Part shown: positions 10,656-13,768 of the stretch, one piece after another
Layout of the letters: every line of letters begins with the position of its first letter
Numbering within the stretch: the stretch's first letter is position 1
DNA from: an uncultured Rhodopila sp.
GTDB taxonomy: Bacteria; Pseudomonadota; Alphaproteobacteria; Acetobacterales; Acetobacteraceae
Reading direction: 5' to 3'
Assembly: GCA_903932145.1 (NCBI GenBank)
Contig: CAIZFE010000042.1
Location: forward strand, 186,001 to 250,000
Length of the DNA stretch: 64,000 bases
Notes under the pieces: generated by a model
The model's input: only the letters and a program-made list of their open reading frames with translations
What the model was told of the DNA's origin: nothing
The model's database searches: none
Made by a program: the position numbers and the translations under genes

Positions 10656-10677
10656 CGGTCTCTCCCTTGCTGGACGC

Positions 10678-10732
10678 GGAAAAAACTTCCCTGGCGGATG
10701 GCGTAAGGTTGCGATGGGAATTTTTTTCCCAT
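10678..10732. promoter_or_regulatory. Paired GGAA-N5-TTCC palindromes before carA
   Basis: Two copies of GGAA-N5-TTCC lie between the divergent GFA gene and carA: 10678-10690, and 10717-10729 within the longer perfect repeat ATGGGAA-N5-TTCCCAT (10714-10732). Their centres are 39 bases apart. The downstream copy ends directly before ATG 10733 and 12 bases before ATG 10745. Such a pair is a plausible operator; the adjacent CarA carries a helix-turn-helix-like domain. Binding is inference. Confidence 0.5.
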
Positions 10733-10744
10733 ATGGTGGTCCTT

Positions 10745-12127
10745 ATGCCGATCTCGATCGATCTTATCATAGAACGCATGGGCGGCGCTGACGCGGCTGC
10801 TCGATTGACGGGTGTGGGGACCGAGGCTGTGCGCAAGTGGCGCCAGTCCAAGGCAATCCCGTCCCGTCACTGGCCCGCGGTCATCGCGGCGACCGGCCTT
10901 AACATGGCCGACCTGCAGACCGACCTTCAAGAAAAGACGAGTGTCCCCATGCAAAATGCTTCGAGTGCCGACGCCATTCCCGCTGGTGCGACCGCCGCTT
11001 TGGTGCTGGCCGATGGATCGGTGTTCTGGGGCCGCGGTTTCGGCGCCCATACGTCCGCGACCAACCCGGTGGGCGAGGTCTGCTTCAGCACCAGCATGAC
11101 CGGGTATCAGGAGACGCTGACCGACCCGTCTTTCGCCGGCCAGATCATCACCTTCACCTTCCCGCATATCGGCAACGTTGGTACCAACATCGAGGACATC
11201 GAGGCCACGACCATCGCCGCTCGGGGTTTGATCGTGAAGGTGGATGTGACCGAACCCTCCAACTGGCGCTCGACGCAGAAATTGCAGGCGTGGCTGCTGG
11301 GGCAGGGCATCACCGGCATCTCCGGTGTGGACACGCGGGCACTGACCATTCGCATCCGTGACGGTGGCGCGCCGACCGGCGTGCTGGCGTTCCCGGCGGA
11401 TGGGCGGTTCGATCTGGTGGCCCTGCGGGCGCAGGCAGTTGGCTGGCCAGGGCTGGAGGGAATGGACCTCGCGAAGGAGGTCACCTGCCGGCAAACCTAT
11501 TCCTGGGATGAGACCGCCTGGGTATGGCCGACCGGTTCCGGCAGGCAGACCGCGCCGACGCATCACGTCGTGGCGGTGGATTACGGGGCGAAACGGAACA
11601 TTCTGCGCTGCCTGGCCTCGGCCGGCTGTCGCGTGACCGTTGTCCCGGCGACCGCGACGGCCGAGGACATTCTGCGGCACAAGCCGGACGGCGTCTTCCT
11701 CTCGAACGGCCCCGGCGATCCGGCGGCGACCGGGGTCTATGCGGTCCCCGTGCTGAGGGACGTGCTGGACAGCGGCGTGCCGATTTTTGGTATCTGCCTC
11801 GGGCATCAACTGTTGGCTCTTGCGCTGGGCGCCAAGACCTACAAGCTGGAACGCGGCCATCGCGGCGCCAACCAGCCGGTGAAGGATCTGGAAACCGGCA
11901 AGGTGGAGATCACCAGCCAGAACCACGGCTTCGCGGTGGACGCGACCGCGCTGCCGGCGAACGTGAAGGTGACGCATGTGTCACTGTTCGATGGATCGAA
12001 CGAGGGCATCGCTTCGACGGATCGGCCCGCGTTTTCGGTGCAGTACCATCCGGAGGCCAGCCCCGGTCCGTCCGACAGTCATTATCTGTTCGCGCGGTTC
12101 GTGGGGATGATGGACGGGCGGGCGTAA
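10745..12127 (+). CDS. carA: Carbamoyl-phosphate synthase small subunit with N-terminal HTH-like domain
   Basis: From ATG 10745 the protein is 460 residues. Residues 69 onward ([10 protein letters not shown]..) form normal CarA of about 392 residues: the small-subunit N-domain ([21 protein letters not shown]) and a class I glutamine amidotransferase with nucleophile Cys351 in [12 protein letters not shown] (codon 11795-11797) and the HPEAS His. CarA hydrolyses glutamine and passes ammonia to CarB. The first 60-odd residues ([43 protein letters not shown]) look like a Cro/YdaS-type helix-turn-helix. I recall a database domain named carph-isopro at the N-terminus of some CarA proteins; not verified. 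ATG 10949 could also start a classical CarA. The carB partner is separated by an ATPase gene. Confidence 0.9.
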
Positions 12128-12180: not shown

Positions 12181-12342
12181 ATGGACCCTCTTCGCAATCC
12201 CTTCGTCCCTGGTGCTGGCGTTCAACCCCCGGAACTGACAGGGCGGCGGGACCTGCTTGAACACGCCCGTATTGCCCTGGGGAAAACCCGCCTTGGGAAA
12301 CCCGTCAAAAGCCTGATCGCCATCAACCGTGAGTCGGTAGGC
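12181..12342 (+). pseudogene. Truncated paralogue of the AAA ATPase gene
   Basis: From ATG 12181, 54 codons align without gaps to the start of the ATPase gene at 12539. By eye about 34 of 54 residues are identical (MDP.RNP..PGAG, RIALG.TRLG.P). Similarity stops in the Walker A motif: the intact gene reads RGVGKT where this copy reads ESVGPC. The frame then runs on through unrelated sequence to a stop at 12451-12453. It is best read as the remains of a diverged tandem copy rather than a working gene, since it lacks all ATP-binding residues. Confidence 0.7.
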
Positions 12343-12486
12343 CCATGTCCGGTTGCAATACCACCAGATCCATCGCGATTCCCGGTATCGGTGCGATCAG
12401 TGGTCGTGATCTGTTCGCACGGTTGGCTGGCCGACCGGGTCTCGGCCCGGTGAACAATTTCGGGGCGTTCAATTGCAATATAAGAA

Positions 12487-12538: not shown

Positions 12539-13768
12539 ATGGACCCCACCCGCAATCCCTATGCGCCCGGCGCCGGCACGCCACCGCCTGAACTCAGCGG
12601 CCGGCAAGATCTGTTGGAGCAGGTGCGGATCGCCCTTGGCCGCACCCGGTTGGGGCGTCCCGCCAAGGGATTCTTCGCCGTCGGATTGCGGGGGGTCGGT
12701 AAAACAGTGTTGCTGCGAGAAGCCCTGGCGATGGCGACCGCCGATGGGTTTTATACGTGCTTCGTCGAGGCGGACGGACAGAAATCCCTGGGCGAACTCC
12801 TGGTCCCGCATTTGCGCCGCCTGCTGCTCGACCTTGACCGCATGGGTAAACTCGCGTCCGAGGTGAAGCGTGGGCTGCGCGTTTTGAAGAGCTTTTTGTC
12901 CGGCCTGAAGCTGACCTATGGGGATGCGGAACTCGCGCTCGATATCGATCCCGAACCCGGCATCGGAGACAGCGGCGATCTGGAGGACGATCTTTCGGAA
13001 CTCTTTGCCGCCATTGGTCAGGCCGCGATGGCCAGGGACACGCGGGTCGCGCTGTTCATCGACGAGGTCCAATATCTCAGTCATCGGGACTTCGCCGCGC
13101 TGATCAAGGCGCTGCATCGCTGCGCGCAAGAGAAGCTACCGATCATTCTGATCGGTGCCGGGTTGCCGCAGATCGTGGGGCTGGCCGGCCGGGCGAAATC
13201 GTATGCCGAACGGATGTTCGATTTTCCCGCGTTGGAGGCGTTGGGCCGCGCCGACGCGGATCGGGCCATCCTTGCGCCGGCCGCCGAGCAAAACGTCGTC
13301 GTGACCCCGGACGCCCTGGATGCGATCGACGCTGTGGCCAGGGGCTATCCGTATTTCATTCAGGAATGGGCGTACCACGCCTGGAACGCCGCACCGGGAC
13401 CGATCATCGATCGCGCGGTCGTTCTGGCGGCGACACCTGCCGCCTCCAGGCGTCTGGATGGCAGTTTCTTCAGGGTCCGGTTCGATCGCCTCACGCCGCG
13501 CGAGAAGCAATACCTGCGCGCCATGGCCTCGTTCGGTCCCGGTGTCTGGCGGGCCGGTGAGATAGCCGAACGGCTGGGCGTTAAGCCAACCAGCGTGGCA
13601 CCGTTACGCAACGGTTTGATCGGCAAGGGCATGATCTACAGCCCGCAGTTTGGCGAGACCGCGTTCACCGTCCCGATGTTCGACGACTTCCTGCGCCGCA
13701 TGATGCCCGATTGGGTGTCACCCGCCGCATCCAAAACCAATCCGCCTGTCCTCCCAGAGAGCACCTAG
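12539..13768 (+). CDS. AAA-type ATP-binding protein with C-terminal winged helix
   Basis: A 409-residue STAND/Orc-like ATPase. Residues 1-45 are a conserved lead-in shared with the upstream remnant. Walker A is GLRGVGKT (49-56), Walker B is VALFIDEVQ (170-178), and a sensor-like strand [11 protein letters not shown] follows near 202-212. Arg225 in [12 protein letters not shown] may be an arginine finger. The C-terminus (about 320-375) is a winged helix-turn-helix with [26 protein letters not shown]. This resembles archaeal-type ATPase/Cdc6-like proteins seen in mobile or defence contexts; the role is unknown. It sits between carA and carB, with carB starting only five bases after its stop, so all are probably co-transcribed. 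Confidence 0.85.

Follow-up and report, generated by a model that had tools for sequence, protein, structure and literature searches.

A Cro/YdaS-like domain fused to the small subunit of carbamoyl-phosphate synthase and its candidate operators at the carA promoter

Enzymes that repress their own genes, the so-called trigger enzymes, are exemplified by PutA, BirA and NadR, and a metabolic enzyme, PepA, takes part, along with PyrH, IHF, ArgR, PurR and RutR, in the control of the Escherichia coli carAB genes. Here, we explored a 64,000-nucleotide window (the whole stretch of DNA analysed, positions 186,001 to 250,000 of contig CAIZFE010000042.1 of an uncultured Rhodopila sp.), in which CarA, the small subunit of carbamoyl-phosphate synthase, begins with a Cro/YdaS-like helix-turn-helix (HTH) domain. 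PepA offers a likeness, in that an enzyme participates in carAB control; however, the DNA binders of E. coli carAB are separate proteins, unlike the fused CarA. PutA, BirA and NadR are likewise enzymes that carry a DNA-binding domain and control their own or related genes, although here the enzyme is CarA, the domain is of the Cro/YdaS type, the candidate sites lie almost exclusively at the gene's own promoter and a second, domain-free form is probably made from an internal start. The CarA chain includes a domain to which DNA binding is assigned by similarity, and conserved operator-like sites are located at its own predicted promoter. Thus, as judged from comparative sequence analysis, it is quite probable that the long CarA is both an enzyme and the repressor of its own gene, in which case it would represent a new form of self-repressing enzyme. 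Among the titles and abstract openings that we searched (for one query, the best 20 of 175), a body of text outside which most subscription papers fall, there was no description of a self-repressing HTH-CarA.

The domain itself has relatives in phages. The regulators N15 Cro, Xfaso 1 Cro, P22 Cro and E. coli O157 YdaS share with the CarA domain the fold and a weak sequence likeness but stand alone in prophages, whereas here the domain is fused to a housekeeping enzyme. YdaS is a footprinted Cro-like repressor, with operators that are repeated palindromes overlapping promoters (PMC8630535). The closest match is the NCBIfam entry NF046037, carph-isopro, which represents the same domain and is matched by the window CarA far above the cut-off; the entry, compared here through its one-line description, is a named domain to which an operator pair, a promoter layout or an internal start are not tied, and the name carph-isopro did not occur in the literature searched.

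The initial annotation, made from the letters alone, had proposed that an HTH-like segment runs without a break into normal CarA and might autoregulate car expression. The first of these claims is borne out by translation: positions 10745-12127 of the forward strand form a single open frame of 460 residues, a Cro-type HTH followed by ordinary CarA. The coding features are as follows.

10745-10951, forward strand: Cro/YdaS-like HTH (carph-isopro) and linker of the long CarA, from the profile match, AlphaFold2 and Foldseek
10820-10849, forward strand: predicted recognition helix, residues 26-35, an AlphaFold2 helix with strong conservation
10985-12127, forward strand: enzyme part of CarA (small subunit of carbamoyl-phosphate synthase), starting at residue 81 and matched by TIGR01368, PF00988 and PF00117
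10949-12127, forward strand: second frame start (ATG, residue 69), which would yield a domain-free CarA; internal ATG in 95/136 linkers, with a Shine-Dalgarno sequence stronger than after synonymous recoding

The hidden Markov model (HMM) searches and the structure prediction both point to the same fold. Residues 5-58 match carph-isopro with 70.8 bits (E 8e-20, residues 1-70 as the query), and the full-length protein scores 66.4 bits over model positions 1-54 of 54, against a curated cut-off of 38 bits; with the same 70 residues, Pfam YdaS_toxin (PF15943, 25.5 bits, gathering cut-off 30) and P22_Cro (PF14549, 21.7 bits, cut-off 30.2) show similarity below membership. The AlphaFold2 model, built from a 52-row alignment, is a small helical domain (helices 5-12, 15-22, 26-35 and 40-50; mean predicted local distance difference test score, pLDDT, 83.5), in which helices 2 and 3 form a Cro-type HTH with a block mean pLDDT of 93-96. 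The nine top Foldseek matches are all Cro proteins, namely, N15 Cro with and without operator DNA, Xfaso 1, the hybrid XPH1 and P22, with probability 1.00 and E values of 0.03-0.15, none under 0.001. Thus, the proposed HTH-like N-terminus held up in both profile and fold. Residues 59-74 fall below pLDDT 50 in the full-length model and, therefore, the domain appears to be attached via a loose linker. Beyond it, residues 84-457 belong to CarA (TIGR01368, 445 bits versus a cut-off of 307) and contain the FGICLGHQ motif, which we take to be that of the glutaminase cysteine. Solved small chains of carbamoyl-phosphate synthase, presumably those of E. coli, align to the long CarA from residue 83 only and hence lack the HTH.

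Within the family to which the window belongs, probably Acetobacteraceae (the acetic acid bacteria), the domain scored above the cut-off in 142 of 150 genomes, so that the fusion is more than a chance event; in the genome of the window, the fused CarA is the sole copy above the cut-off. We took 141 of the 142 as the carA copy, one that does not belong to CarA (L125) being removed before all counts of 141, and set aside the stand-alone small proteins L181-L183. Of the 142 fetched loci, 138 continue from the domain into CarA, as does L127 by eye; L105 is apparently frame-broken after the domain and the contig of L110 runs out within a long linker, and these three were kept among the 141 upstream regions. 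In L029, CarA stops 68 residues in. The eight genomes without an above-cut-off match comprise six with no match and two below the cut-off, and in a further genome, G116, the domain is found above the cut-off only as a small separate protein, not on CarA. When these nine genomes were searched for CarA, four had none, three had fragments without the start and two had a complete unfused gene; the latter, G029 and G116, are near-complete genomes of one genus, g30. In a class-wide sample, the domain scored above the cut-off in 52 of 289 genomes, including 4 from the same family. Among 88 genomes of the class from outside the family with a CarA, no match in a whole-protein search, in which some matches were partial, covered the domain, and the two that begin before residue 50 both contain stops. 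The named records of the fusion are Asaia bogorensis and Acidocella aquatica (NBRC 112502), and it is from these that the family is taken to be probably Acetobacteraceae.

The key observation is a palindrome, GGGAA-N5-TTCCC, located upstream of fused carA genes, usually in two copies. With at most one mismatch and within 160 nt, 131/141 fused loci have at least one site and 104/141 at least two, compared with 1.5% in Markov shuffles of the same upstream stretches. None of 30 unfused carA genes (28 outgroups from the class and the 2 of genus g30) has such a site, nor does any of 75 further unfused genes, which may overlap the 28, examined up to 400 nt upstream (L305 and L341 were excluded from this set as too short). 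The core GGAA-N5-TTCC is exact in 134/141 upstream regions, in 0/141 downstream regions of equal length and in 1/140 regions farther upstream. Under a looser criterion (200 nt), at least one site is present in 140/141 and at least two in 120/141 fused loci; in 86 of 120 loci, the last two sites are 38-40 bp apart, with 39 bp the commonest spacing. Of the 10 fused loci without a site under the one-mismatch criterion, 7 carry the exact symmetric variant CGGAA-N5-TTCCG. In the window, the sites and the putative promoter elements around them are the following.

10677-10691, no strand assigned: distal operator-like site CGGAAAAAACTTCCC, which departs from GGGAA-N5-TTCCC at one position, from the motif search
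10716-10730, no strand assigned: proximal operator-like site GGGAATTTTTTTCCC, in the spacer between the putative -35 and -10 boxes, from the motif search and alignment
10709-10714, forward strand: putative -35 box TTGCGA, its TTG intact in 82/91 class A loci (defined below)
10732-10737, forward strand: putative -10 box TATGGT, some 7 nt ahead of the start codon, from the alignment of the 91 class A loci

Both sites fall within 10656-10744, the region that the initial annotation had named for DNA binding, and the autoregulation that it envisaged thereby gains comparative support, the operator-like pair being found at the promoters of fused carA genes but not of the unfused ones examined and missing also in genus g30, which lacks the domain. 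With its flanks, the proximal site reads TGGGAA...TTCCCA (10715-10731), and it is the sole exact site in the window. Across 60 genomes, TGGGAA-N5-TTCCCA has 53 forward sites versus 6 for the reversed pattern, and 49 of the 53 are located at carA, according to a comparison of their places with the domain matches. The genome of the window contains three other exact core sites besides that at carA. One of these, C21:85382 (L184 983-997), where the 17-bp form is absent, lies about 60 bp past one frame, with a second frame beyond; we take these frames to be luciferase-like and ABC substrate-binding-like, respectively.

The palindromes could, in principle, be operators of some other regulator, single-target or global, with the CarA domain serving, for example, as an oligomer contact. 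Indeed, HTH folds can mediate protein contacts, and the link between the domain and the sites comes from sequence comparison. However, it is at fused carA genes that the sites are found, to the exclusion of both unfused sets, and they are missing in g30, the sole genus found without the domain, where the best upstream match has 3 mismatches. Furthermore, those positions of the domain that probably face the DNA show strong conservation. A28, K31, W32, P39 and H42 are invariant in the 141 fused loci, the invariance of K31 and W32 being partly by construction because the residue alignment was anchored on KW, whereas R30 is kept in 140/141 and E27 in 139/141. In 26 full-length rows aligned without this anchor, E27, A28, R30, K31, W32, P39, H42 and W43 are all invariant. 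The residues of helix 26-35 that likely contact DNA, E27 and R30 among them, are thus well conserved, as is the core GGAA of the sites. A global regulator was rejected given that the sites are near-unique to carA in the 60 genomes, and we regard another regulator of any kind as rather unlikely.

In 91 loci, which we denote class A, the first base of the proximal site is located 27-31 bases upstream of the start. A TTG, intact in 82 of them, is located seven bases upstream of the site, and a -10-like stretch comes after it, so that the proximal site fits the 17-bp spacer of a putative promoter; 77/91 combine this TTG with the A that is conserved in the -10. In the mapped promoters of Gluconobacter oxydans, the -35 follows the pattern ttGnnn and the -10 is lax; among the leaderless genes of this bacterium, 57 begin with ATG (PMC5756330); a term search of the main text of that study returned no mention of carA. 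Among the 140 loci in which a site was placed, 139 have ATG as the start of the long form, with the provision that the script favoured ATG whenever one was available. In class A, this ATG lies about 7 nt after the putative -10, so that a leaderless mRNA is expected. Accordant with this expectation, the long-form start of class A has no Shine-Dalgarno sequence (mean -1.13 kcal/mol, 87 loci); by comparison, the 49 other loci, where the sites are mostly farther upstream, do have one (-5.16 kcal/mol). The long form is thus probably read from a leaderless mRNA in class A. An extra in-frame ATG occurs at 10733, 12 bases before 10745 and inside the putative -10 region. The promoter placement favours 10745 as the start of the long CarA, and annotation may misplace this start at such an upstream ATG.

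The same layout bears on whether the inverted repeats could act as an RNA or DNA hairpin, an attenuator or terminator, rather than as protein sites. In 7 of the 10 exceptions, the outer G:C is swapped for C:G on both arms, which preserves pairing, as a hairpin would demand. Against this, the class A sites are upstream of the predicted transcription start, GGAA and TTCC are kept as letters and not merely as pairs, and no terminator was called, so that a hairpin appears highly improbable. As for known RNA elements, the sole Rfam match was sub-threshold and located elsewhere, at 10853-10914, and this candidate was rejected.

The linker between domain and enzyme changes fast, and yet an in-frame internal ATG is present in 95 of 136 linkers (the set omits L105 and L110 and, for want of a linker anchor, L078, L100 and L107; with a stricter anchor, 81 of 126). 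Shine-Dalgarno pairing to the 16S tail before this ATG averages -5.55 kcal/mol, compared with -3.37 after synonymous recoding, where a linker with several ATGs was represented by the one with the best pairing; it is better than the recoded value in 83/95 cases (p 1.8e-14), and the control averages were -2.03 ahead of the remaining linker codons and -1.43 ahead of 262 Met codons within the CarA body. In-frame ATGs of unfused CarA precede a conserved GAT by 3-58 residues, mostly by 7-29. The internal ATG is thus near the normal start of unfused CarA and, therefore, the original start was probably retained upon fusion of the domain. These patterns suggest that, in most species, CarA is probably made both with and without the domain, and the domain-free form foreseen for the ATG at 10949 is consistent with an internal ATG and Shine-Dalgarno sequence that are conserved in most species. 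For annotators, this means that a short CarA start may be a genuine second product rather than an error. The more extreme possibility, that translation starts only at 10949, which would reduce the upstream frame to a leader that is rarely or never translated, with the domain not normally made, draws on the better ribosome-binding site of the internal ATG in class A. Nevertheless, the domain is conserved as protein next to the fast-changing linker, and both the near-universal upstream ATG and the normal Shine-Dalgarno sequence in the 49 other loci speak for translation of the long form; we consider exclusive use of the internal start very unlikely.

Under the favoured reading, that of CarA as its own repressor, the Cro-like N-terminal domains, paired in the CarA/CarB oligomer, would bind the two GGGAA-N5-TTCCC sites at the carA promoter. 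Given that the proximal site lies between the -35 and -10 in most species, the bound protein would block RNA polymerase, and the 38-40 bp between the sites would suit joint binding by two domain pairs of one oligomer. Short CarA from the internal start would dilute the long form, such that the share of the latter sets the level of repression, on which the assembly or ligand state of CarAB would probably also act. The oligomeric state of E. coli carbamoyl-phosphate synthase shifts with uridine monophosphate, inosine monophosphate and ornithine, and a signal of this kind is a natural candidate. If this scheme is correct, entry into pyrimidine and arginine synthesis would be controlled by the enzyme itself, with no need for a separate regulator at this promoter, and a role would be assigned to carph-isopro, which the one-line NCBI description names without stating one. 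The model lends itself to testing, as it involves a single domain, a single promoter and a single 15-bp site, with natural variants of that site and a genus in which both domain and site are missing.

Several points weigh against this reading. A generic sigma-70 promoter scan called no promoter here; the looser site criterion is also passed by 3 of the 75 unfused carA loci; and of three further fused loci in a named collection, only one meets the 1-mismatch criterion, the other two having CG-type or near variants. The joint absence of domain and sites amounts to a single lineage, represented by 2 genomes. Residue 34, at the end of the recognition helix, appears to track the outer base pair of the operator (non-Gln in 6 of 8 CG-type loci versus 4 of 131 others; Fisher p 6e-7), but the eight loci were hand-picked (seven with exact CGGAA-N5-TTCCG, L023 with an extra core mismatch) and the covariation amounts to roughly 5 changes on a tree (61 columns) of poor resolution, too few independent ones for the pair test, which was not significant, so that it is at best suggestive. 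With regard to the second start, 41 of the 136 linkers have no internal ATG, the pairing before internal ATGs benefits from the choice of the best one described above, and the window's own Shine-Dalgarno sequence before the ATG at 10949 is medium, at -3.3 kcal/mol.

Beyond CarA, the fusions point to a broader, tentative scheme, which we rate as possible but somewhat short of probable: throughout the Alphaproteobacteria, a Cro/YdaS-like domain would have been repeatedly fused to control-point enzymes (CarA, PyrB, ArgB, HisZ, NnrED, CoaBC and others), each becoming the repressor of its own gene with its own 15-bp 5-N5-5 palindromes (five-base arms around five bases), often in fixed-distance pairs, with assembly read out at the promoter and, in carA, an internal start tuning the dose. 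Such a history would outline a recurrent evolutionary path from phage-type repressors to feedback switches on metabolic enzymes. The non-CarA fusions with palindromes are, at this point, a lead. Above the carph-isopro cut-off are PyrB L371 (38.9 bits), SerA L201, CCR L064 and L209, and NnrED L057, whereas HisZ-like proteins, ArgB and PdhA score below it, at 26-37 bits; CoaBC, GlmU, NnrED L359 and the TorD-like L364 gave no carph-isopro match at the threshold used, and their HTH-like N-termini are weak matches from the class-wide search. The enzyme parts of PyrB, ArgB, PdhA, SerA, CCR, NnrED, CoaBC and GlmU, and of L205 as HisZ, were confirmed by HMM, and the other HisZ-like rows tested as well as the TorD-like chaperone fall below curated cut-offs.

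The HTH-PyrB of L371 (483-1655), with TTGCG-N5-CGCAA upstream, is a second pyrimidine enzyme of such design, from another family. The HisZ-like fusions (L193-L197, L352, L205 and L355) come from three families, with the domain below the cut-off in those tested, and the candidate site for HTH-HisZ is TTCATATNATATGAA; in L193-L195, three loci of one family on which this spacing rests, two TTCAT-N5-ATGAA sites lie exactly 39 bp apart, just before the start. The ArgB fusions L198, L199 and L356 have site pairs at -58 and -24, 34 bp apart, which rest on shared positions in three loci of one family, the second site of L199 having two mismatches by eye; L357, from another family, combines ArgB with a more diverged HTH (29 bits) and a long palindrome upstream. 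Tested per locus against 100 shuffles (results in brackets), the palindromes performed well in NnrED L359 (0) and L057 (1), PyrB L371 (3), TorD-like L364 (2), ArgB L357 (3), and HisZ L193 (1), L195 (3), L197 (5) and L205 (3). The outcome of the same test was weak or null for HisZ L194 (31), L196 (11), L352 (89) and L355 (34), ArgB L198 (79), L199 (38) and L356 (32), CoaBC L353 (6) and L354 (55), GlmU (16), PdhA (80), SerA (100), both CCR loci (34, 60) and the other TorD-like loci (6 to 92). Taken as a set, the 21 non-CarA enzyme fusions show perfect 5-N5-5 as the commonest gap class, a modest excess (22 versus 6-20); 25 further long fusions, of which the two tested proved mitofilin-like, show no such excess (8 versus 4-13 for other gaps) and, accordingly, the model is not extended to them.

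Other HTH-bearing proteins were encountered as well. Alphaproteobacterial proteins of L048, L062 and similar loci (L038-L056), mitofilin-like in the two that were tested (L048 and L062), begin with a related HTH (...TTVQGWKERG...) and show no excess of operator-like palindromes, perhaps acting as a DNA tether at the membrane. L363-L370 are TorD-like chaperones with an HTH-like N-terminus, and in L360 an RstR-like HTH precedes a protein resembling prephenate dehydratase, all below curated cut-offs. In the window, an ATPase-like gene, so named by eye, occupies 12539-13768 between carA and carB, and a short frame at 12181-12453 (MDPLRNPFVPGAGVQPPEL...) repeats the N-terminus of this gene, in the manner of a partial duplication.
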